From IMG/VR virus record IMGVR_UViG_3300035670_001232, positions 1-23,944 of that record: a stretch of DNA of 23,944 nucleotides; one strand, given 5' to 3'. The position numbers and the translations under genes were made by a program. Position 1 is the stretch's first letter. The number at the start of each line of letters is the position of its first letter. This DNA is from a virus. Below are positions 4,558 to 22,350 of the stretch, piece after piece. The notes under the pieces were generated by a model. That model was not told the origin of the DNA, made no database searches, and worked only from the letters and a program-made list of their open reading frames with translations.

Positions 4558-7500
4558 ATGGCAACGGCAGACGAATACGCGGCTTGGATTGTTCAAAACG
4601 CCAGCAAGAAAGGTACGCCTGAATTCGACATCGTGGCTCGGGCGTATGAAGAAGCAAAGCAAGAAGAAGCTGATGCACCAGCGGGTCGTCAACTCACCCC
4701 GTCCGTCGAAGTTCGGGTCGTTGACGAGCAGGAACTCGGTCAGATTCCCGTTGACCCGAACCTCCGCGCCCCCGAGGCCATCAATGGTTTGCAGCCGGAG
4801 ACAACGATGGCCGGGATGCTGGGCGCTGTCACCCGTGGTCTGACGCCCATCGGCACAGGTGCTTTACTTGGTGCAAGGCATGGGGGACTGCCCGGCGCAG
4901 CAGCCGGTGGCGCAGCCGCAGCCCTTGCACCCGTTGTCGGTGATCCTCTGGTGCGTCTCATCAATCGGTCGTTTGGCACGTCGCTCACGGAGCCCACACA
5001 ACTCCTTGACAACCTGTTCACCCAGATGGGTGTTGCGGTTCCGAAGAACGATGTCGAGCGGATGACCAAGGATCTGTCAACAGGCATTGGCAGTGGCATC
5101 TCAGTACCAAAAGCCACCGCCAACGTCATCACTGAGTACGCTGCTCGGCAGGCACCTGCCCAGGCGCAGCAACTGACTCGGCTGGCTGAGAACATCGCCA
5201 CCTCGGGTATGGGGCGTGGATTGACCACCACCGAGCGTGTCGGAGGTGGCATTCTTGGTGGCGCGCTGGGTGGCCTGTCCACCTCGCAGGATCTGGGCGA
5301 TGTGGGCGTGGCTGGTCTTGTCGGTGGTGCGGCAGGCCCGGTGGTCAAAGGTGCTCAGACGGTCGTCGGGAGCATGTATGACAACTTGGTCGCTCCCTTC
5401 GTCAGCCCTACGAAGATGGCCGCACGAACCCTGTTCAAGGACATCGGTGGCACGGTGGGGCGGGCAGAAGAAGCCATTGGTGAACTTCGCCAGGGCATGA
5501 CGGTGCCCACCACTCCCGGCTTCCAGCCCACGGTACCCGAGTTGATGGCAGCCGGTGGTAGCCAGAGGCTTGAGTCGATGGCTACGCTGGCCGAGCGTCT
5601 GGCAGGCTCGTCGATGAAGAACGCCGAGACAGTCAGCCGCGCCATGAACGAGCGCATCGGTGCGCTTCAGGCTCAGTTGGCGCGGATCAACCAGCAGATC
5701 GACCGCCAGGGTGCCATGCTCCAGCCGGGTGCGCTGGACGAGTTGACCGGCACCCGTGATGCGATCCTGAAGTCGCTCGATGATGAGCGCACCGTGATGG
5801 AGAACGCGCTCAAGGCGCGTGCGGGTGGGTTGCCAACGGGAACTCAGCAGGTCGGTGAGGAGATTGCTGCGCGTGCTGCGGAGATGGACGAATCGTTCAA
5901 GAAACTCGTCAACAAACCGAACTATCAACAAGCGTTCAAGTTGGCAGGTGACACACAGATTGATGTGGCACCTATCGTCAGCGCAGTTGAAACTGTCATG
6001 GGCCGTCCACTGTCGTCATTTGCCCCAGACACCGCACCCCCGATCATTCGCGCCCTGAATCGAATGATCCCCCGTCCCCAGGCAAATATCCCAGCAGGTT
6101 CTATTTACGTACCCGGACAACCATTGCCGCAAGCGCCGACTGTCACAGCAACGCTTGATGTGCTGGACGACATGCGCAAAGCGGTCAACGCGACCATTGC
6201 CCAGGCGCGTCGAGGTACAGATCAGTTGGCGGGTGTGGAACTCAACAACTTGATGGGGCTTCACAAAGCCATTGACGATGCTGTCAAGGCATCACCTTTG
6301 TCATCACAAGCCAAGACAGCTTATGAAAAGGCGTTGAAGGACTACCGCGAACTGTATGTTCCGAGATTCCGTACCTCGGAAACAGGCAAGATACTCAAGG
6401 ACACGACGTTCAATGAGACGCGCATCATGCCGTCACAAGTCGTTCAGCAGTTCACCAAAGACCTTGATGCGGCCAAGCAGTTCGTGACCACGTTCGCAGG
6501 TGACTCGCGGGCCTACGACTCCCTGCGCAACGGCATCCTGGGTCAGTTTGAGGAAGCCGCCGTCGATTCGCAGACCAAGATGATCGACCCGCGCAAGGCT
6601 GCCGAGTTCATCAAGAAGAACCGGGAAGTCTTTGCAGAGTTCGACAAAGCGGGCATGGGCATTCGCCACTCGCTAGAGCAGTTTGAGCAGGAGGCCACAC
6701 AAGCCGCCGATGTCTTCAAGCAACTGTCGGATCAGGCTGGTCCGTTCCAAGGCAAGACCGCCGATCAGGTGCTTGACTACGCGCTGTCTGACCCATCGCG
6801 CATGAAGTTTGCAATCGACAAGTCTGGCCCGCAGGGGGCGGACACCCTGCGCCGTGTCATCTCGACCCGCCTAAACCAGATGCTCACGCAACAGCCTGGT
6901 GGCGAGGCGTTGACCGAAGGCAAGGTTCTCAAGGTCGTTGGTGAGCTGACCGACAGCACGGGCAACATCAAGCCAGCCTACAAACTGGCGCTGGGTGACA
7001 ACCTTGTCAAAGACTTCGTTGACCGCGCCAAGGGCTTGGCCAGCGTCATCAAGACGAGCAACGACCCGGCGCTGAAGAACCCCAACGCCATCGCTCCCTT
7101 GCTGCGTCAGAGTGACTTCACCCCCGACCAGTTGACCAATCTGCAACTTGTCGTTGACGACTTGCAGCGGATGAAGAAGGTTCAGGCGGCTGCACAAGCC
7201 GGACGCAAGGCTGAAGCGCCCACGGGTAAGCAGTTCGTCCGGGAGCAGGCCGAGGGCTCGGCAGCACGCATCGACAAGATCAACTATCTGGACAAGTTCT
7301 TCACCCTGCTGCGTGCTGTCTACACAGGCGCATCTGAGCGAGTGAACCCCAAGATCGCCGCCAAGCTGACCAACGTCATCTACAACAACCCTGACGAAGC
7401 CATCAAGATGCTTGAGCAGGAGATCGTCCGTCTCAACAAGCAGGCACAGAGTCCTCTCTCCATCTCACGAAAACGAGAGATTCCTCGTGCAGCCGCTGCC

Positions 7501-13218: not shown

Positions 13219-14625
13219 TCATGCTCCTTTGCGTTGACGATATTGCTTGACGGCGGTGCGCAACCCCGCCTGTGTGGTGGCCTTCTCGTCGAGTGCGATG
13301 GCCTGCGCTTGATCCAATGTGTCCTTCGTCATGATGCGGTGGCAGATCACCGGCGCACCCTGACCCTGACGCCTGACACGGGCGTTGAACTGGTCGTACA
13401 GATCTAGGCTCCAGTTGAGCCCGTACCAGACCAACGTGCGCCCGGTCTTTTGGAGCCCGTCGATCCCATGTCCCATTGATGCCGGGTGACCGATCATCAG
13501 TTGACAGTCGCCACGCTTCCACCTGTCCATCGCGTTGGTCAGTGACCCTTCGCTCTTGCACTCGGTCAGGTTGATCGGCCGCAGCGCCTTGAACCGCTCC
13601 ATGATCCGCTCGGCATCGCTGCGGTAGGCGTAGGAGCAGAGCACCGGAGAGCCCTGCGCTTCGTCCAGGATCTCCTCCAGGGCGTCGAGCTTCAGGTCGT
13701 GAACCGGCTCCCACAGCGGCATCCCGGCGATGGGGTACACCGCGCCGTTGGAGAACTGGAGACACTTGTTCGTCATCGCAGCGGAGTTGAAGACCTCGAT
13801 CTCCTTGCCGCTGTCCAGCACGGTGAAGAACTCGCGCTCCATCTGTTCGTACTGCCCACGCAACTCGTTGGGCATCTCCACCTCGATGTCGTTGACGATC
13901 AGATCGGGCAACGGGTTGTAGTCCTCGGCGCTCATCTCCAGCGTGATGTCACCAATCAGGTTCTTGATGACCTCCTCGGTGTCGTCGAACGGCACCTCTT
14001 TGAACGGCCCGACCTTCTTGTAGAACCGGGTCTTGAACGCGGTCTTGCTGGTGCCCAGGCGATGGCCTTTGTCCACCACCAGATACTGCCCGTGCAGATC
14101 CTTGTAGCCGTTGCTGGCCGGGGTGCCGGTCAGGCCCGTCGTCCAGTCGAAGTGCTCCGCGATGCGGCGGTATGACTTCACCCGGTCCGTGGCGCTGTTC
14201 TTCATCTTGCTGATCTCGTCCCACACGATGCCGTTGAAGGGCAGCGGGCGGTCTTTGCTGATGAAGTAGGTGTGCAGCGTGTCGGCCAGCCACCCGAGAA
14301 CGTCGTAGTTCACCAAGTAGATGTCAGCAGGGCGCAGCAGGGCGCGGGTGCGCTGATCACGCGTGCCCGCCACCACACTGAATCGCAGATGCTTGGTGTG
14401 CTCCCACTTCGCAGCCTCTTGCCGCCACACGAGGCGGATGACGCGGATCGGGGCGATGATGACCACGGCGCGGAGGAACTGCGACTTGATGAGGTGCGCG
14501 ACGCTGGTGAGCGTGATGACGGTCTTTCCCAAGCCCATGCTGACCCATAGCATGCTATTAGGCTGCGTGCATTGGAAGTTGACCGCCTTCTTCTGGTAGT
14601 CGTGGAGCAGGTTAGGGGTCAGCAT
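13219..14625 (-). CDS. SNF2-type superfamily 2 helicase / DNA translocase
   Basis: The 468-residue product has the full set of SF2 motifs: Walker A SMGLGKTV (29-36), Walker B DEIS (136-139), motif III TGTPA (166-170), and in the second RecA lobe IGHPASMGHGIDGLQ (about 378-392, motif V) and QFNARVRRQGQ (412-422, motif VI, arginine finger). The size and the compact lobes fit phage SNF2-like proteins. It would hydrolyse ATP to move on or remodel DNA during replication or recombination. The start at ATG 14625 overlaps the VRR-NUC stop by seven bases. The nuclease-helicase pairing is a familiar phage replication arrangement. Confidence 0.92.
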   Translation of the reverse strand: MLTPNLLHDYQKKAVNFQCTQPNSMLWVSMGLGKTVITLTSVAHLIKSQFLRAVVIIAPIRVIRLVWRQEAAKWEHTKHLRFSVVAGTRDQRTRALLRPADIYLVNYDVLGWLADTLHTYFISKDRPLPFNGIVWDEISKMKNSATDRVKSYRRIAEHFDWTTGLTGTPASNGYKDLHGQYLVVDKGHRLGTSKTAFKTRFYKKVGPFKEVPFDDTEEVIKNLIGDITLEMSAEDYNPLPDLIVNDIEVEMPNELRGQYEQMEREFFTVLDSGKEIEVFNSAAMTNKCLQFSNGAVYPIAGMPLWEPVHDLKLDALEEILDEAQGSPVLCSYAYRSDAERIMERFKALRPINLTECKSEGSLTNAMDRWKRGDCQLMIGHPASMGHGIDGLQKTGRTLVWYGLNWSLDLYDQFNARVRRQGQGAPVICHRIMTKDTLDQAQAIALDEKATTQAGLRTAVKQYRQRKGA

Positions 14626-14930
14626 CGCCCCAGCTCCGTCATCTCACTGGTTATGCGCAGCATCTCGTTCACCATGCGCATCCCAGCGTCCACGTTGTCC
14701 ACCACGAACACCGGGACGTCGTACTCCCGCAGCCGCTTGTGCTCGCGCTCCTGGGCTGGCGTGGGCTTCTGGCCCTGGCGCTTGAACTCGCAGAAGAACA
14801 TGACGCCACCGGGCACGATGAACAGGCGGTCAGGCACCGCAGCACGCGCTGGCGAGGTGAACTTGTATGCCAGCAGCCCACGCTCACGGGCGTAGGCGCA
14901 GACCTTGGATTCGATGTCTTTTTCAAGCAT
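14619..14930 (-). CDS. VRR-NUC domain nuclease
   Basis: ATG 14930 has GGGAAG five bases upstream. A GTG at 14936 overlapping the previous stop (GTGA) is a real alternative and adds two residues. The roughly 103-residue product is a minimal VRR-NUC (PD-(D/E)XK) nuclease: PD at about 33-34 in AAVPDRLFIVPGG, then E48-x-K50 in FFCEFKRQGQKPT. The stand-alone phage form often sits beside an SNF2 helicase, as here. It probably resolves or trims branched DNA during phage replication and recombination. Confidence 0.9.
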   Translation of the reverse strand: MLEKDIESKVCAYARERGLLAYKFTSPARAAVPDRLFIVPGGVMFFCEFKRQGQKPTPAQEREHKRLREYDVPVFVVDNVDAGMRMVNEMLRITSEMTELGRC

Positions 14931-14932
14931 GG

Positions 14933-15136
14933 TCACTTCCCATCGTCCGTGTTCTGGTCAATCTCTTGAATCGCTCGCTTGCAGTAGATGGCCGCATCGA
15001 GCAATTCCTCGTACTGGTGCTGCAACCAATCGCGCAGCGGCAGTTTGTTCTTGGCGACGGTGGTGCCGTACTTGCGCAGCCCGACGTACTGCCGCAGTCG
15101 AATGTCTTCGACGACTTGTGATTCCGTGTCTCTCAT
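14933..15136 (-). CDS. Small helical phage protein, possibly MazG-like
   Basis: ATG 15136 overlaps the polymerase TGA (ATGA). Longer in-frame starts lie inside the polymerase gene. The 67-residue product begins MRDTESQVVEDIRLRQ and carries WLQHQYEELLDAAIYCKRAI, all helical. The YEELLDAA stretch recalls the acidic ExxD motif of all-alpha NTP pyrophosphatases (MazG-like), but only one half of such a site is present. It could dimerise to form an active site or be an accessory protein. Its place between polymerase and nuclease genes suggests a replication or nucleotide-metabolism link. Confidence 0.6.
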   Translation of the reverse strand: MRDTESQVVEDIRLRQYVGLRKYGTTVAKNKLPLRDWLQHQYEELLDAAIYCKRAIQEIDQNTDDGK

Positions 15137-16965
15137 GCCAGCCCCAGTGCGAGTTTCTCGATCTCGTTGACGTAGTAGTCGAAGTCCACAGGCAGCACGG
15201 CATCTTTGATGTCGTTGCACACCTGCACGTTCCAGCCCGACTCGACGGCGAACTTGCGCCAGTCGGTCTTGCCTTTGAGCGGGGGCATCCACTTGGTCAG
15301 CGGCTTGCCACCCTTGGCGATGTAGTACCGGGTCGTGTTCTGCACCTGGGCATCGCCCCACTGGAGATAGCTCGACCTGGGCACCTTCACACGCAGCATG
15401 AAGTCGTGCAGATCCGGCCAGTTCTCCACCGTCTCGCGGATCGGTGCGCCGTCCACCAGTACCTTCTCGACCACCTTGGGGATCACCAAGCCGCCAGCGT
15501 TCTGGTGCCAGCCCGCCTTCCACTCGTAGGCACCCTTACGCTTGGTGTTGCCGTCAGGGTAGACGGCCAAGTAGTTGTTGACGTCGCGGATCATCATGGC
15601 CTTGTAGGTGGCCTCCTCAAGCTGCAACCCGGTGCGCTGCTGCCACGCTTGGCTGACCATATCGACCATCACCTTGTGGCTGCGCGGCACGCGCACCGTG
15701 ACGCCATCGGTGTTGATCTGGACGATCTGCAAGCCATCGATGGTCATCAGCCCCTCGGCCAGCACACACAGCAGCAACTGCCCGTTGAGCGTGATCGACA
15801 TGGTGAACAGCGGGTCGTAGAACACGCTGAACTGGTTGTTGCTGTCACCGTAGACGCCGTTGAGAGCCAGTTTCAGCATGGCCGATTCGGTTGACTTCTT
15901 GGGGTACTGCTTGCGCTGCTCGAACAGGTTCTTGTAGATGGCGCAGAACTCCTGGCCGAGATGGGCCGGGTAGAAGCCATTCGTGATTGCCAAGTTTGGA
16001 TAGTACGAAGTGACATCAAGGTCCACGATGATGAACTCATCATCTGACTCGATGACTCGTGACTCGACGGAGCCGTGGATGCCGCCGAGGCCGAAGACGA
16101 AAGTGAATCCATTGACAGTAGCGGTGAGGTCAGTGAAGACACCCTTGGTCTCGGTGATCGACTGGTCTTTCAGCCAGTTCAGGACGCGGGTGAACTCGGT
16201 GTTCTGGAATGTGATCCAAGGCAAGATGGCGTCCTTCAGATGGATCACCGAGCGCTTGGTCTGCCTGGGTGTGCGTCCATCGGGGCCGAAGTCGTAACAG
16301 GCCACGCCGGACTCCTCCAGCTTCAGCGTGAAGAACTCCTTGCCGATCTTGGTGTCGTTGAAGTTGAGCCAGTCTTTGCCGGGGTACTTGGTGCACAGAT
16401 CCTCGCGGAACCGGATCATCTCGGTTGTGTGACCGTAGAACGCCTTGGTCTGCGCGACATCGTGCCGGTTGTAGTGCTTGAGCACCTCGATCTGCTCACG
16501 GGTCAACTCGGTTCCAACCTTGAAGGGCAAGTCCTCGATGGTGTCCGAGCGCATGTTGAACTCCAGCGCCTTGAGGCTGGTGGCTCGGGCCTTGTTGTCG
16601 AAGTGGTGGATCTTGTAGAGGTCGATCTGCTCCACGATGCGGTCACTCGGCTTGACCGTGTGCAGCCAGCGGTCCTCGTCGTCCTGGCGCTCAATGATGG
16701 CCTGCGCCTTGCGGTACAGAGTCTGGGCATCAGACTGACCCATCTGCATCAGCATGTGCAGGATCGGGTAGTCGAAGCCGATGTTGTTGAACCCGGCCAT
16801 GCGGTCGTTATGGTCGGCCAGATGCCGAACGAACTCAATGATCTGCCGGGAGTCGTTGCGCCATTCGCTGATCTCGAACATCAGCCGCACGGGCGCTTGC
16901 GCGTGCTCCACGGCCAACGTGAAGACGTTGGGATAGGTTTCACAGTCATAGATCCAATCACGCAT
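15133..16965 (-). CDS. Family B DNA polymerase with 3'-5' exonuclease domain
   Basis: The 610-residue product has exonuclease motifs Exo I (D7-C-E9), Exo II (FNNIGFD, Asp65) and Exo III (YNRHD, 165-169). The polymerase motifs are motif A DLDVTSYYP (315-323), motif B KLALNGVYG (365-373) and motif C INTDGV (417-422). A GLGGIHGS stretch at 293-299 is typical of phage members. Family B usually reads DTD at motif C; here it is NTD, with the metal-binding second Asp (D420) kept. It is short for a B-type polymerase but appears complete. It replicates the phage genome. The start ATG has no clear Shine-Dalgarno and lies just after a strong hairpin. Confidence 0.92.
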   Translation of the reverse strand: MRDWIYDCETYPNVFTLAVEHAQAPVRLMFEISEWRNDSRQIIEFVRHLADHNDRMAGFNNIGFDYPILHMLMQMGQSDAQTLYRKAQAIIERQDDEDRWLHTVKPSDRIVEQIDLYKIHHFDNKARATSLKALEFNMRSDTIEDLPFKVGTELTREQIEVLKHYNRHDVAQTKAFYGHTTEMIRFREDLCTKYPGKDWLNFNDTKIGKEFFTLKLEESGVACYDFGPDGRTPRQTKRSVIHLKDAILPWITFQNTEFTRVLNWLKDQSITETKGVFTDLTATVNGFTFVFGLGGIHGSVESRVIESDDEFIIVDLDVTSYYPNLAITNGFYPAHLGQEFCAIYKNLFEQRKQYPKKSTESAMLKLALNGVYGDSNNQFSVFYDPLFTMSITLNGQLLLCVLAEGLMTIDGLQIVQINTDGVTVRVPRSHKVMVDMVSQAWQQRTGLQLEEATYKAMMIRDVNNYLAVYPDGNTKRKGAYEWKAGWHQNAGGLVIPKVVEKVLVDGAPIRETVENWPDLHDFMLRVKVPRSSYLQWGDAQVQNTTRYYIAKGGKPLTKWMPPLKGKTDWRKFAVESGWNVQVCNDIKDAVLPVDFDYYVNEIEKLALGLA

Positions 16966-16982
16966 TACGATTACTCAGTGAG

Positions 16983-17006
16983 AGGGCGCGGACTGATCCG
17001 CGCCCT
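16983..17006 (-). promoter_or_regulatory. Perfect hairpin between SSB and polymerase genes
   Basis: A perfect 10-base inverted repeat, AGGGCGCGGA / TCCGCGCCCT, flanks a four-base loop. On the transcribed minus strand it lies after the SSB stop and 17 bases before the polymerase ATG. No T-run follows, so it is a weak terminator at best. It may be an attenuator, an RNA processing site or a 3' stabiliser that keeps SSB mRNA abundant while polymerase synthesis stays low. Confidence 0.55.
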
Positions 17007-17013
17007 TGGAACA

Positions 17014-17658
17014 TCAACCCATCAGGAACGGGGGCAGACCCATCGCAGCAGCGGGTGCCGCAGCAGGGGCAGCGCCGGCCACAGCGCCGAACATGCCCGA
17101 CGCATCGACTGCGCCTTCGCCGAACGCCTTGTCATCACCTGCGAATTGGATGGCCACCAGATCCGCACGGATGCCGCGACCGTGCTTGTTCTCCTGCAAC
17201 CAAGGCTTGATGGCCACGTTGACACGGCAACCGCCGTACATCTTGCGGGTCAGCGCCTGATAGGCCATCGTGTTGGTCGGGTCCACGGGTGAGCCGTCCG
17301 ACTGGATGATCTGCGGCGGCGTGTCCCGACCAGCGGTCACGAACACGTTGCCCGTGTAGCCGTCGTACGGCTGGAAGGTCTTGCTGTTGACCTTCTGGTT
17401 ACCGTCACCGTAGCAGCGCAGCTTGCGGTCAGCGTTGATCATCTGCATGACCTGATTGGCGTGCTCCTTCCACTTGGCCAGCGCCATCTCGTTGATCTTA
17501 GTCATCAGCGCCTTGAAGCCGGGGTGATCGGGCGGCATGATGAAGTCGCCCGAGTAGCTGGTGCGCTCCTTGCCGGTCTCGGGTGAGACACGCTTCTGGG
17601 GCTCTGCGAGGTGGGGGAAAGACAGTCGAACATTCGACAGGAAAACAACGTCACTCAT
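17014..17658 (-). CDS. ssDNA-binding protein, Enc34 type (DUF2815)
   Basis: ATG 17658 is chosen over an in-frame start at 17685 because AAGGAG lies seven bases upstream. The 214-residue product begins MSDVVFLSNVRLSFPHLAEP and contains YSGDFIMPPDHPGFKALM, KCYGDGNQK-like RCYGDGNQK, and GGCRVNVAIKPWLQENKHGRG. These match the DUF2815 family, shown in phage Enc34 to bind single-stranded DNA with an OB-like fold. The C-terminal 45 residues are Ala/Gly/Pro-rich and flexible. Unlike bacterial SSB the tail ends in PFLMG and is not acidic. It sits between the DUF2800 nuclease and the polymerase, the usual place for this family. Confidence 0.88.
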   Translation of the reverse strand: MSDVVFLSNVRLSFPHLAEPQKRVSPETGKERTSYSGDFIMPPDHPGFKALMTKINEMALAKWKEHANQVMQMINADRKLRCYGDGNQKVNSKTFQPYDGYTGNVFVTAGRDTPPQIIQSDGSPVDPTNTMAYQALTRKMYGGCRVNVAIKPWLQENKHGRGIRADLVAIQFAGDDKAFGEGAVDASGMFGAVAGAAPAAAPAAAMGLPPFLMG

Positions 17659-17672
17659 GATTACTCCTTGGT

Positions 17673-18950
17673 TTACAACAGCCACGAGGGCAGGGGTTCG
17701 ACGACAGGTGTCGCCGGTACTGCGCTGAACATCGGCGCAGCATTCAGTGAGACGGCAGAGCGATGGTCCGAGGCCAAGGCGAGCACCGGCTTACCGGTGG
17801 TCTTGACCACATACTCCTGCTCCATCGTCTTGAGTTGTCGGGCGGTCAGTTGCACCGTGCTGCCGTCCCGCTTGGTCCAGGTGAGCTTCTCGGCCTTGGC
17901 TGGGCTGACGACCTTGGTCTCGTAAACAGCACCCTTGGGGATGCCCATCTTGACCAGCTTCTCGGCGATCTCATCGTCCGACAACTTCCACGAGCGCGAG
18001 GTGCGACCGTTCACCAGCTTCAGGCCGGGGATGGTCTGACCGGACTCCAGACGACGCTGAGCCTCCTTCTCCACACCCTCCAGCAGCTGCCGCATCAGCG
18101 GTGCCGCCTCCAGGATCTGGACGATCTGGTCATCGCTCATCGTGGTTGGATCTTTGTCAGCGGTGCCCATCACGATGTCGGCCGACTGCACAACCTCCAG
18201 CGCCTTGGTGGACAGTGCAGCACACGCGCCCTTGTGCGCACAGTACTTGCACTGCTTCTCACCAGGCACCAGTGGCGCATCGGGCTTGTCGGTAGCCTCG
18301 GCCTCCGCCAGGATCTGCGGGGCCACCACGTCCATCAACTTATCCACAGAGTAGTCCACAGACCGGATGGCCTTGCCGCCCTTGAGAGCGAGCTTCGGCT
18401 GGATCACCGTCATGCGCACCGTGTGGTACGGGTAAGGGCGGGCCTTCTTGAACCCGGCCAGCACACCGACTGCATACTGCTCCATCTGAAGGATGGCCGA
18501 GTCCCATGCGTCGTTCATGCCGTCCTTGTAGTCGATGACCTCCAGCACCTCGTTGAGCGGATCGTGGATCTGCACATCGACCGTGCCATCGAGGTCAGAC
18601 CGACCCATGAAGTAGGCCAGATGGACCCGCTGCTCGGCGATGACCTCGGCCATGCCCATCGTCGGTGCGACTCGCTCCTTGATGTAGTCAATGGCGATCT
18701 TGACCCGTGCGGCGCGGTCAGCATCGACAACGAACTCGCCGTCATGGTCCGACATGCGCACACCGACCATGCTGGTGGGATCGCCGAGTCCGCCCTTGAT
18801 GCAGTGCTCCAGCAGCGTGTGACTGTGCGTCCCGTCGATGGCCGCAGCACCGCTGCGCACCTCAGGGTAGACAGCCTCCTCACGGATGCTGCCTGGGCAC
18901 ACTCCCCACCGATGCCGCTTGGACGGCGACAGTTTGGCGTGGTCACTCAT
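17673..18950 (-). CDS. DUF2800 Cas4/RecB-like PD-(D/E)XK exonuclease
   Basis: The 425-residue product starts at ATG 18950 with GAAGG seven bases upstream. It shows the RecB/Cas4 nuclease motifs: DGTHSHTLLE (His42), GRSDLDGTVD (Asp121), VIDYKDG (Asp140, Lys142) and QMEQYA (155-160). Cysteines at 18, 234, 237 and 243 (CKYCAHKGAC) fit a Cas4/AddB-type 4Fe-4S cluster. It likely resects DNA ends for phage recombination. The C-terminal third is helical with no motif. It lies directly upstream of the SSB gene, as expected for an exonuclease and SSB pair. No annealase gene is recognised in the window. Confidence 0.9.
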   Translation of the reverse strand: MSDHAKLSPSKRHRWGVCPGSIREEAVYPEVRSGAAAIDGTHSHTLLEHCIKGGLGDPTSMVGVRMSDHDGEFVVDADRAARVKIAIDYIKERVAPTMGMAEVIAEQRVHLAYFMGRSDLDGTVDVQIHDPLNEVLEVIDYKDGMNDAWDSAILQMEQYAVGVLAGFKKARPYPYHTVRMTVIQPKLALKGGKAIRSVDYSVDKLMDVVAPQILAEAEATDKPDAPLVPGEKQCKYCAHKGACAALSTKALEVVQSADIVMGTADKDPTTMSDDQIVQILEAAPLMRQLLEGVEKEAQRRLESGQTIPGLKLVNGRTSRSWKLSDDEIAEKLVKMGIPKGAVYETKVVSPAKAEKLTWTKRDGSTVQLTARQLKTMEQEYVVKTTGKPVLALASDHRSAVSLNAAPMFSAVPATPVVEPLPSWLL

Positions 18951-18952
18951 GG

Positions 18953-19372
18953 TCAGACCTTCAGCGCTTCGACACCAGCGAACAGCGCGTCGTACTTGTC
19001 GGGGCTGACCTCGTTGATCGTGGTGCAGCCAACGCTGCCGAGCACGTTCTGGATCTGCGCACCCTTGACCGTGCCGAGTGTCTTGTAAGACCCCATGATG
19101 TAGTCGATCAGGCCCTTTTGGTCAGCGAATGGGGCCTTGGGCAGCGCCTGGGCAACAGGTGCCGGTGCAGCAGGAGCTGGCACCTCGAACACGGGCGGCG
19201 CGGGCATCGCAGGCGCTGCGGCGACAGGGGCGGGGACCGGAGGAACGGATCCACCGGGACGGACGACCGGCGGAGCCACCGGTGCGGGTGCATCAATGGG
19301 ACGGGCGCCCATCGCAGCGACTAGTGCGTGGATGGCAGCGGTCAGGGCTTCAATCTTGGCTTCGAGAGACAT
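18953..19372 (-). CDS. Pro/Ala-rich linker protein of the replication module
   Basis: ATG 19372 is preceded by AAGGA about eight bases away. The 139-residue product has an N-terminal helix (MSLEAKIEALTAAIHALVAA), a Pro/Ala/Val-rich linker at about 25-78, and a folded-looking C-terminal part (KGLIDYIMGSYKTLGTVKGA, then VSPDKYDALFAGVEAL). No catalytic motif is visible. The layout of two small domains and a flexible tether suggests a scaffold or loader between replication proteins; that is inference. The start overlaps the RHH gene by 23 bases. Confidence 0.65.
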   Translation of the reverse strand: MSLEAKIEALTAAIHALVAAMGARPIDAPAPVAPPVVRPGGSVPPVPAPVAAAPAMPAPPVFEVPAPAAPAPVAQALPKAPFADQKGLIDYIMGSYKTLGTVKGAQIQNVLGSVGCTTINEVSPDKYDALFAGVEALKV

Positions 19373-19547
19373 ACAAGGATTCCTTCTTTGGGTTTACGGG
19401 TGGGATTACGGTTAGGCGGTCCTCGATGAACGCCTCGACCAGTTCGCGCAAGACCTCCGACACGCCTCCGTATCGAACTGCCTTGTCGCGGAACGCTTGA
19501 TGCACCTGCACCGGCAGACGCACCGTGAGAAAAGTCGTGTTCTTCAT
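19350..19547 (-). CDS. Ribbon-helix-helix transcriptional regulator
   Basis: ATG 19547 gives 65 residues; an in-frame ATG at 19556 adds MVN. Residues 5-45 fit the Arc/MetJ-type fold: a strand TTFLTVRLP, helix A QVHQAFRDKAVRYG, and helix B VSEVLRELVEAFIEDR. Such dimers bind direct or inverted repeats in tandem. The gene lies immediately next to three phased 8-base repeats, so autoregulation and control of the divergent rightward gene are likely. It is the first gene of the leftward replication operon. The C-terminal tail (about 48-65) is probably disordered. No good Shine-Dalgarno precedes either start. Confidence 0.8.
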   Translation of the reverse strand: MKNTTFLTVRLPVQVHQAFRDKAVRYGGVSEVLRELVEAFIEDRLTVIPPVNPKKESLYVSRSQD

Positions 19548-19548
19548 G

Positions 19549-19578
19549 TTGACCATTGTTGCACATCTCAAGCACAAT
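19549..19578 (+). promoter_or_regulatory. Candidate sigma70-type rightward promoter
   Basis: TTGACC (19549-19554) and CACAAT (19573-19578) are separated by 18 bases. They match five of six and four of six positions of the -35 and -10 consensus. The gene at 19610 follows with an AAGGAG. The -10 overlaps the middle operator repeat, so a bound RHH protein would block it. The leftward promoter could not be placed with confidence. Confidence 0.4.
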
Positions 19579-19587
19579 GCAAGCACA
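19558..19587. promoter_or_regulatory. Three direct repeats, 11-base period: probable RHH operator
   Basis: The repeats are GTTGCACA (19558-19565), CAAGCACA (19569-19576) and CAAGCACA (19580-19587), each starting 11 bases after the last. Read on the minus strand they are TGTGCTTG, TGTGCTTG, TGTGCAAC. One helical turn between copies would place bound dimers on the same DNA face, as ribbon-helix-helix proteins often do. The array ends two bases before the upstream ATG candidate of the regulator. Confidence 0.6.
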
Positions 19588-19609
19588 CCAACGCAAAAAG
19601 GAGAACGCG

Positions 19610-19771
19610 ATGAGCAAGGTGCAGATGATTCGACGGGCCATTCGGCTGTGGAGTGGCTCGACATCGAAGCGGGTCAACCGACACAATCAGCGGCAGTGGC
19701 TGAAATCGGTGGAGTTCCTAGGCGACAGGTGGCTGCTCGCCAGACAGGTGACACGCAAGGCGGGTCAGTAA
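19610..19771 (+). CDS. Small basic hypothetical protein, first rightward gene
   Basis: ATG 19610 has AAAAAGGAG seven bases upstream; longer in-frame starts would run through the operator. The 53-residue product is strongly basic (MSKVQMIRRAIRLWSGSTSK, then WLKSVEFLGDRWLLARQVTR). Short phage proteins with a similar FLGDRWLLA ending seem familiar, but I know no function. The charge suggests nucleic-acid or membrane binding. It is divergent from the RHH regulator and probably shares its operator. It is followed by a hairpin and then the primase gene. Confidence 0.65.
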   Translation: MSKVQMIRRAIRLWSGSTSKRVNRHNQRQWLKSVEFLGDRWLLARQVTRKAGQ

Positions 19772-19804
19772 AAAATAACCCACCCGGTTTGTGGCCGGGT
19801 GGGT
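19770..19804 (-). terminator. Intrinsic terminator acting on leftward transcripts
   Basis: A perfect 10-base stem, ACCCACCCGG / CCGGGTGGGT (19778-19787 and 19795-19804), with a seven-base loop is followed on the minus strand by TTATTTTTT. On the plus strand only CAAATC follows, so it should act leftward. The nearest minus-strand genes to its right end at 22335, about 2.5 kb away. It would stop transcripts that had run antisense through the primase gene. Confidence 0.75.
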
Positions 19805-19829
19805 CAAATCACAGAGGAGGGAGAACGCC

Positions 19830-19847
19830 ATGAAGGCGTGCCCATGA
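19830..19847 (+). CDS. Five-codon minicistron (MKACP) before the primase gene
   Basis: The strongest Shine-Dalgarno here (GAGGAGGGAG, 19814-19823) is correctly spaced for ATG 19830 but 28 bases from the primase ATG 19849. ATG 19830 opens ATG-AAG-GCG-TGC-CCA-TGA, and its stop lies one base before the primase start. Its ATG sits in the loop of a small hairpin (ACGCC-ATGAA-GGCGT). This looks like a leader that delivers ribosomes to the primase by reinitiation. Confidence 0.4.
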   Translation: MKACP

Positions 19848-19848
19848 T

Positions 19849-22350
19849 ATGACATCAGACGTATTCATTCAACACCCGGCCAGCGTGGACGCATACATCA
19901 GACACGGTTGGTCACTGGTGCCGATCCCACCTGGTAGCAAAGGCCCTTCGACACGCGGCTGGAACCAGCGCGGGACCACACTGCGCAGCCAGTCGGATCT
20001 GCCACCGGCACACGGTGTCGGGCTGGCCCATGCGTACAGCGGCACGATGGCGCTTGACATCGACGACTGGGCGAGTGCTGGTCAGTGGTTGTCCTTGTTC
20101 GGCGTCAACCTCTCGGCGCTCTACGAGGGCCACGATGCGGTCATCGTGGACAGTGGCCGACCTGGGCACGGGAAGCTGCTCTACGCGATGCCGTTCGGTC
20201 TGACGCTGCCGTCCAAAAAGATCAGCATCGGCGGGGCAACGGCGTTCGAGCTGCGCTGCGCCACGGCTGACGGTCTGACGGTGCAGGACGTTCTGCCGCC
20301 GTCGATCCACCCTCAGACTCAGCAGCCCTATCGCTGGGCAGGACGGGGCCACTGGACGCGACTGCCCGTGATCCCGATGCCGCTGCTGGAGTTGTGGCAG
20401 CAGATACTGATCGAGGCCGCACCGGCACCGACCGAGCCCACGGGTGAGCTGGTCGAAGTCAACTGGGACGAGATCCGCAGCGCACTCGATGCCATCAGCG
20501 CAGACGGATCACGCGACGAGTGGATTACCTGCGGCATGGCGCTGCATTGGGCGGGGACGCACACCGGCAAGGTCGATGAGGCGTTCGGCATCTGGCAGCA
20601 GTGGAGCCAACAGTCGGCGCAGAAGTACCCCGGCGACAGACAGATCGCGGCGCAGTGGCGTTCATTTAAGTCGGACAAGGCGTCGTCGGTGCGCCTGGGC
20701 AGTCTGTTCCACCTCGCCCGTCAGGCTGGGTGGGTGAAGCCCGCACTGGACGCATCGGCCTTATTTAAGCCAGCCGAGGCACTGACCGCGCCGACGGTGC
20801 TGATGGAGTCGGGCAAGGTGCCCGCACCGACCATGCGCATCGAGTGGTGGCCGCAGGCTCTGGCCGACCGAGCCACTGAGGTCAGCCAGCACATTGGGTG
20901 CGATCCCATCGTGCCGCTGTTCAGTGGCCTGGCGGCGGTAGCAGGGGCCATCGATGCCCGGTCAAGGCTCAAGCTGATGGAGGGCTATGAGGTGCCCCCG
21001 GTGATCTGGCTGATGACCATCGGCAGTCCAGCTGACAAGAAGACACCGGGCGCGAGTCCCATGATCGAGGTTCTCCATCAGATCGAGGCCGAGGACTACC
21101 CTGCGTTCAAGCGGCGGCTGCTCGACTGGGAGGCACTGGAGGCGCGGCACTCAGTGGCGAAGAAGGAGTTCCTGGAGACGGCCGCCTCGGCCGACTTCAC
21201 GGGCAACACGGCGCTGCCCCACGTGACCGACCTGCCCCCGCAGCCCCAGCCCCTGCGGATCAAGGTGAGCGACATCACGAGTCAGAAGCTCGTGCGCTAC
21301 GCGGCGGAGCGTCCTCGGGGCCTGTTGTGCTACCTGGACGAGATGGCCGCGTGGACGAAGAAGATGAGCGACCGACAGAGTGGTGAGGATCGCTCGACTT
21401 GGGTGCAGGCCTACGAGGCACGGCGGTATGAGTACGACCGGGTGAGCGGCGGGGCCATCATCGCCGACTGCTTCGCGGTCAGCGTTTACGGCAACATCCA
21501 GCCCCTGGTCTATCGGGGTGCAGTGGAGGCACTGGCCACTGACGGCCTGTTGCAGCGGTTCATCCCCGGCATCCTGGACACGCGCAAGACACGCCGAGGG
21601 GAGCCACGGCCACCGGCACACTCGGCGAACTGGGACCAGTTGATCCGACTGGTGTACTCACTACCGGCGCAGACGTACACGCTGGAGCCCGAGGCGTTCA
21701 CACTGTTCCGCGAGTTCCAGTTGTGGTTCGAGCAGTCGAAGCGTGACGAGGTGGTGATGGAGTCGGACCCGGCGTTCCTCACGGCCTACGGAAAGCTGGA
21801 GGGCACGGCGGGCCGACTGGCGCTTCTGTTCCACGTCCTCGACGCGCCGTTCTCGCCCGTGGTCAGCCGCTCGACACTGGAGCGGGCCATCAGCATGGTG
21901 CGGGGCTACGTGATCCCGGCGCTGCGGTACACCCTGGCCGAATTCACCGGCGAGTCGTTCGACGTCTGGGTGCAGTCATGGCTCCTCTACCACTGCGGGG
22001 GAAAGCCGGTTGTCACACTGTCGGAGATCAAGCGCGGCGCACGGCGAAAGATGGAGAAGGTCCAGTCGATCTGGCTACAGGACCGGATGGTCCTTGGGGC
22101 TATGCAGACGCTGGAGGATGCCGGGTGGGTGATCCGCAGCGATGATGGCACACGCGAGCATCTGCATCAGGCCGAATGGGCCGTGAACCCGGCGCTTGCA
22201 GGGGCGTTCAGCAGGCAGCGCACCGAGATCATCAAGGCCCGTCAGCGGGCCGAGGATGAGCGGCGCAGGATAGCGGGCCTGGAGCGGCGAGAGGTGCCGC
22301 ACTTCGAGCAGTGGATGGACGGGGACGATGAGGATCAGCTGGCGGCTTGA
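19849..22350 (+). CDS. Primase-helicase: Prim-Pol + PriCT_2 + DUF3987
   Basis: The 833-residue product begins with an archaeo-eukaryotic-type primase domain (about 10-180): ALDIDD (Asp70, Asp72), SGRPGHGKLLYAMP (102-115) and VLPPSIHPQTQQPYRW (148-163). PriCT_2 follows at about 207-295 (SALDAISADGSRDEWITCGM). The C-terminal half fits DUF3987, a helicase-like ATPase found in phage and plasmid primases. Its Walker A position reads GSPADKKT (392-399) instead of GxxxxGK(S/T), while the Walker B LDEM (496-499) is normal. It would prime replication and perhaps unwind DNA. ATG 19849 has only a weak own ribosome site and follows a minicistron. The 3' end overlaps the methyltransferase gene on the other strand by 16 bases. 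Confidence 0.88.
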   Translation: MTSDVFIQHPASVDAYIRHGWSLVPIPPGSKGPSTRGWNQRGTTLRSQSDLPPAHGVGLAHAYSGTMALDIDDWASAGQWLSLFGVNLSALYEGHDAVIVDSGRPGHGKLLYAMPFGLTLPSKKISIGGATAFELRCATADGLTVQDVLPPSIHPQTQQPYRWAGRGHWTRLPVIPMPLLELWQQILIEAAPAPTEPTGELVEVNWDEIRSALDAISADGSRDEWITCGMALHWAGTHTGKVDEAFGIWQQWSQQSAQKYPGDRQIAAQWRSFKSDKASSVRLGSLFHLARQAGWVKPALDASALFKPAEALTAPTVLMESGKVPAPTMRIEWWPQALADRATEVSQHIGCDPIVPLFSGLAAVAGAIDARSRLKLMEGYEVPPVIWLMTIGSPADKKTPGASPMIEVLHQIEAEDYPAFKRRLLDWEALEARHSVAKKEFLETAASADFTGNTALPHVTDLPPQPQPLRIKVSDITSQKLVRYAAERPRGLLCYLDEMAAWTKKMSDRQSGEDRSTWVQAYEARRYEYDRVSGGAIIADCFAVSVYGNIQPLVYRGAVEALATDGLLQRFIPGILDTRKTRRGEPRPPAHSANWDQLIRLVYSLPAQTYTLEPEAFTLFREFQLWFEQSKRDEVVMESDPAFLTAYGKLEGTAGRLALLFHVLDAPFSPVVSRSTLERAISMVRGYVIPALRYTLAEFTGESFDVWVQSWLLYHCGGKPVVTLSEIKRGARRKMEKVQSIWLQDRMVLGAMQTLEDAGWVIRSDDGTREHLHQAEWAVNPALAGAFSRQRTEIIKARQRAEDERRRIAGLERREVPHFEQWMDGDDEDQLAA

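Follow-up and report, generated by a model that had tools for sequence, protein, structure and literature searches.

In phage P22 (Arc/Mnt), a ribbon-helix-helix (RHH) repressor acts on closely spaced divergent promoters. The regulator gene and the main operon of the Gram-positive plasmid pLS20 diverge from overlapping promoters, Pr and Pc, and the protein Rco binds an operator lying over them, with a second operator and looping; in the arrangement that the authors favour, each promoter has its -10 box where the other has its -35 box (PMC4207663). Omega (ParB) of pSM19035 is described as a small RHH protein that recognises WATCACW heptads, in direct or inverted orientation, over its own and other promoters, the heptads being contiguous and numbering 7 to 10 per site (PMC9499535). 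The nearest named phage to the virus analysed here is DSL-LC05 (OR003940), for which the family Luchaoviridae has been proposed (PMC10611076). Its gene order is the same: primase, divergent small protein, further hypothetical protein, exonuclease, SSB, polymerase, nuclease and helicase. The DSL-LC05 small protein (51% identical) is annotated as hypothetical, and no promoter or operator figures among the nine features annotated in the fetched stretch. Literature searches under the names DSL-LC05 and Luchaoviridae returned no paper besides PMC10611076.

The window analysed here is a virus record of 23,944 nucleotides, the left part of which is occupied by rightward structural and lysis genes. 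The features discussed below are collected in Table 1. The genes on either side of the candidate control region are those named in the initial annotation, namely the 65-residue protein with its ATG at 19547 on the minus strand, and the 53-residue ORF at 19610-19771. The layout resembles that of pLS20 in that a putative regulator gene and an operon diverge from predicted overlapping promoters, with a candidate operator over them; it differs in the protein, in the replicon and in the second operator with looping on pLS20 (PMC4207663), no second operator having been identified here. In contrast to the contiguous heptads of Omega, words of 5-8 bases stand 11 bases apart here, or form a palindrome with two bases between the halves; the half-sites of several relatives read TATCACA, which fits WATCACW (PMC9499535). 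Unlike the Omega system, no partition ATPase was found among the proteins of the window that were searched. The region was filed as an autoregulatory divergent control region, an ordinary and already known kind, in a little-described phage group.

Table 1. Features at and around the divergent control region, in window coordinates.
Feature	Position	Strand	Basis
Rest of leftward arm: proline-rich protein, DUF2800 exonuclease, ssDNA-binding protein, DNA polymerase, endonuclease, helicase	13219..19372	-	
Probable ribbon-helix-helix protein of 65 residues, encoded first in the leftward replication operon	19350..19547	-	ORF, translation, predicted helices, weak RHH-type profile matches
Predicted rightward promoter -35, TTGACC	19549..19554	+	consensus scan; register same in relatives
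Predicted leftward promoter -10, AACAAT, preceded by TGTGC (extended -10 form)	19555..19560	-	relatives
Degenerate form of the relatives' 24-base palindromic promoter/operator site (candidate)	19555..19578		symmetric matrix
Repeat copy 1, TTGCACAT	19559..19566	+	
Repeat copy 2, AAGCACAA, overlaps rightward -10	19570..19577	+	
Predicted rightward promoter -10, CACAAT (TACGAT or alike in relatives), spacer 18	19573..19578	+	consensus scan
Predicted leftward promoter -35, TTGCAT	19577..19582	-	position of TTGC/TTGA in 18/43 clusters
Repeat copy 3, AAGCACAC, just upstream of leftward -35, at predicted rightward transcript start	19581..19588	+	
53-residue ORF with GGAG upstream	19610..19771	+	
Predicted intrinsic terminator for leftward transcription, between 53-residue ORF and primase	19776..19806	-	
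Primase-helicase-like protein (Prim-Pol, PriCT_2, DUF3987)	19849..22350	+	

Exact copies of GCACA start at 19561, 19572 and 19583, with a spacing of 11 bases, and the array extends over 19561-19587. Three copies of one 8-base word at this spacing had been described previously; the spacing was reproduced, but the single 8-base word was not, since the pairwise identities of the three words are 5/8, 5/8 and 7/8 and the 5-base core GCACA is all that they have in common. As also proposed, the array covers a candidate -10, the second copy overlapping CACAAT (19573-19578) of TTGACC-N18-CACAAT. Among 20,000 dinucleotide shuffles of the 62-base region, 73 contained any exact 5-mer three times at equal spacing with a period of 6-22, and 10 contained such a triple with a period of 10-12, in a test of 5-mer triples that was post hoc. 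Locally, the GCACA triple is more frequent than expected by chance. The only other exact 5-mer triples with a period of 10-12 in the whole window are two overlapping ones at 5245-5246. Since a stretch of 24 kb could contain one such triple by luck, it is the relatives, not the statistics, that decide.

Searches of viral contigs yielded 12 loci from 66 stretches with the small protein alone and 22 from 74 with an alignment; the primase and exonuclease searches gave 62 loci from 62 stretches and 55 from 58, respectively. A profile of the small protein matched 110 times in 154 sequences (the window plus 153 loci), which gave 63 different upstream stretches, repeatedly fetched contigs having been merged where their last 110 bases were identical. 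These stretches gave 62 rows (L095 gave two, of which one was kept) and then 43 clusters, which were cut at 80% identity and are not mutually independent. The rows of L094, L053, L076, L048 and L004 are anchored off register in the alignment. No homologue of the small protein was found in 84,980 prokaryote genomes, from which 70 candidate stretches were taken, and a plasmid search for homologues gave only four matches, with E values of 3 to 5, one of them a MobC.

Superimposed divergent promoters of the sigma-70 type were predicted at this place across the 43 clusters, each -35 adjoining or overlapping the -10 of its partner, so that -35 and -10 elements of both strands fall within 34 bases in a conserved register. 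A TTGC or TTGA word is found 16 bases before the leftward -10 in 18/43 clusters; among the remainder, others carry TTGACA or TTGCAC one or two bases further from it. On the opposite strand, the best promoter has the first base of its -35 at +10/+11 and the end of its -10 at -18 relative to the leftward -10 in 23/43 clusters, including this phage and L110. The mean best promoter scores were 8.4 leftward and 8.3 rightward, against 6.0 and 6.1, respectively, in shuffled sequences. In this phage the leftward promoter reads TTGCAT-N16-AACAAT, with 7 bases from its -10 to the ATG at 19547; it matches the consensus weakly, and the consensus scan of the window did not pick it up. The reading of the region between the genes as a divergent promoter and regulatory region agrees with the predicted elements on both strands and their register in relatives, from which we infer that the promoters work. 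As the two predicted promoters lie on the same 34 bases, RNA polymerase could use only one of them at once.

The distance from the leftward -10 to the ATG is 7-9 bases in 10 of 42 clusters, this phage included, and 23 to 41 bases in the other 32 (L095, without a usable start, was left out). AGGA is present in two of the ten short-distance clusters, but as part of their -10. Leftward transcripts would begin on, or directly beside, the start codon of the 65-residue protein, and its mRNA is predicted to be leaderless here and in close relatives. A second promoter-like site, GTGCTACACT or alike, was seen at L019:12279, L037:10967, L031:10215 and L035:6553 and at similar places in other loci, about 6-7 bases from an ATG or GTG, and may belong to a further leaderless gene of these phages.

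Anchored on the leftward -10, the 43 clusters gave the consensus TTtTtgCAtTGTA.CACA..TGTG.TACAcT, and the element common to many relatives is an everted palindrome, GTA.CACA..TGTG.TAC. The halves of the palindrome are also parts of the extended -10 elements (TGTG.TACACT) of the two promoters. A symmetric matrix was built from 18 clusters with this phage excluded. Its best place in the whole window is 19555-19578, with a score of 10.2, the next score being 3.7. In many loci, though not all, the best match lies beside the gene; it is not first at the gene, or is only weak, in loci such as L004, L011, L016, L024, L042, L048 and L051, and further in L053, L061, L067, L068, L069, L076 and L095. Because many loci share sequences with the training rows, the match in this phage alone was counted as independent. 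At 19555-19578 this phage retains one half of the palindrome and, like L110, has a direct copy in place of the other. The half-site at -15 to -8 fits the consensus here in 3/8 bases only, and the middle copy, which is the rightward -10, is shared with L110 alone among the 43 clusters. Reading the palindrome as a CRP-like, DnaA-box-like or LexA-like site was rejected, as the order of the halves or the letters do not fit.

In relatives, too, phased GCACA/TGTGC copies precede the small-protein gene, as would be expected of that protein's operator. As a general form, however, the direct 11-base array did not hold up, many relatives having the inverted (everted) pair instead. In the 43 cluster representatives there are 41 GCACA/TGTGC words (20.1 in shuffled sequences, 7.1 at random places in the same loci), 17 direct GTG/CAC pairs at distance 11 (3.1 and 1.8) and 12 occurrences of CAC-N4-GTG (1.9 and 0.9); in none of 500 sets was even one of these counts attained. 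Pairs at distance 13 are enriched as much as those at distance 11 (17 versus 3.0 shuffled), which we read as the -10 word TACACT itself.

A scan of the whole viral collection for GTA.CACA..TGTG.TACACT returned 13 stretches, of which 11 lie directly upstream of a homologue of the small-protein gene (E <=1.9e-27), six from contigs already used and five from new contigs; the other two (L154, L159) do not. The scan for the array type of this phage also returned 13 stretches. Eight look like simple repeats, one lies with the gene (L171, the same contig as L110), and four contigs of one lineage (L167, L168, L177, L179) carry a near-identical array that lies in promoter-like sequence and precedes a 99-residue ORF. 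No homologue of the small protein was found in these four records, which are fragments (0/4 by A3, 0/4 by PF01402).

RHH proteins have a short N-terminal strand followed by two helices and, as dimers, bind DNA through a beta-ribbon. The monomer model of the 65-residue protein contains helices at residues 13-24 and 29-41, with pLDDT of about 90-94 there, preceded by a conserved FLTVRL segment to which the model assigned no strand. Matches to RHH-type profiles are weak: RHH_1 in 2/11 family members (best E 0.16), an Arc-like PHROG in 4/19 (best 0.11) and two RelB-type NCBIfam models in 1/19 each, while a PDB hmmsearch gave ParD-1 at E 2.3. The 65-residue protein itself had no match in Pfam and PHROG at 0.1, Foldseek and VIA-align searches with the monomer model returned no RHH structure, and neither it nor the members tested gave a significant RHH profile or structure match. 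The RHH identity assigned earlier is plausible, with two predicted helices in the right places and weak, non-significant matches to several RHH-type families. In comparison with P22 Arc, the nearest profile here is the PHROG 'Arc-like repressor', which is weak, with no significant sequence match. Unlike in P22 Arc/Mnt, no lysogeny genes were recognised among the proteins of the window searched.

Repeated candidate half-sites lie over the predicted promoter of the protein's own gene and are conserved with that gene, and promoter elements overlap them. From this pattern, we lean towards the interpretation that the small RHH-like protein binds the region and represses both promoters jointly. The GCACA/TGTGC words would be half-sites for the 65-residue probable RHH repressor, present here in a direct-repeat version of what many relatives have as an everted palindrome, and dimers on the half-sites would cover both promoters. 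The leftward promoter would drive the leftward replication operon and the rightward promoter the 53-residue ORF and the primase, and once the protein had built up it would silence the primase arm along with its own operon.

We regard it as unlikely, although worth serious weight, that the repeats are nothing more than promoter elements (-35 TTGCAC/TTGCAT, extended -10 TGTG.TACACT) read by the host polymerase and that the small protein does not bind here. Since most copies coincide with promoter elements, part of the conservation may be that of RNA polymerase, and since both halves of the palindrome fit the extended -10 and GTTGCAC reads as a -35, promoter conservation alone could make much of the pattern. 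Another conserved promoter-like site, GTGCTACACT or alike, stands directly before an ATG or GTG several kb away, and the near-identical array in an unrelated promoter-like stretch, in a lineage whose fragmentary records gave no homologue of the gene, speaks against the operator reading. However, the copy directly upstream of the leftward -35, which corresponds to no known core element, is present as GTGC (10) or TGTG (5) in 15/18 clusters, the exceptions being L013, L062 and L042. That this conserved extra copy lies outside both core promoters is in favour of the small protein binding there. In L085 there is an additional copy one turn further out, and of the 13 full-pattern stretches 11 are at the gene, which again argues against promoter elements alone.

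The initial annotation had proposed a cooperative direct 11-base array acting as a switch that sets the leftward replication genes against the primase transcript. The array is real and is also present in L110, and the overlapping promoters would be mutually exclusive. Nevertheless, the proposal is improbable: the array form is exceptional among the 43 clusters, both arms carry replication genes and opposing them makes little sense, no integrase was found among the proteins of the window searched, and the nearest named relative is given as predicted virulent (PMC10611076). The presence of replication genes in both arms, with the protein first in the leftward one, suggests joint feedback, and feedback on two sets of replication genes is most likely, rather than a switch between them.

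It seems very improbable that the region is a replication origin whose short iterons the small protein would occupy as initiator or origin-binding factor. The phased direct repeats do lie between divergent replication genes, an AT-rich stretch adjoins the site in distant relatives, and the GC skew turns from negative (18001-19000) to positive (19001-20000). However, the change in skew follows gene direction, repeats of 5-8 bases are atypical for iterons, the window contains no AT-rich stretch, and the array is not conserved.

On the rightward side, no relative of the 53-residue ORF was found among the loci fetched, and its place is taken in close relatives by another small gene. The terminator points left, against the primase, and an A-tract with a hairpin in the same orientation is found upstream of many primase relatives. 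The primase leaders of many relatives (e.g. L091, L092, L093, L160) contain a leader ORF of ~12-15 codons that has a ribosome site to itself (for instance MKKLATAITSENIV) and a stop overlapping the primase start as TATGA; this looks like translational coupling. The leader ORF of this phage (19810-19851) has shrunk to MKACP and ends just before the primase start. A small hairpin (19825-19839) between the ribosome site and the primase ATG is also present in L028, L029, L083, L103 and L171, the stem letters varying between relatives with pairing kept. Over all leaders examined, the longest hairpins had 4.7 pairs versus 4.3 in shuffles, and were hardly longer.

Within the interpretation of joint repression by the small protein, a more specific version is possible and is offered tentatively. 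One 24-base palindrome would have three readers, each half doubling as a repressor half-site and as the extended -10 of one of the two opposed promoters, and a single bound complex would close both arms. The repressor mRNA would be leaderless because its promoter runs up to the start codon. In the lineage of this phage the inverted site would have been rebuilt into a direct 11-base array, so that a closely related protein would have to bind head-to-tail. The region provides a testable operator and promoter map for a group of uncultured phages little covered in the literature. Beside closely related proteins it also offers a natural series of sites, from inverted to direct, which asks how small repressors tolerate changes in site geometry.
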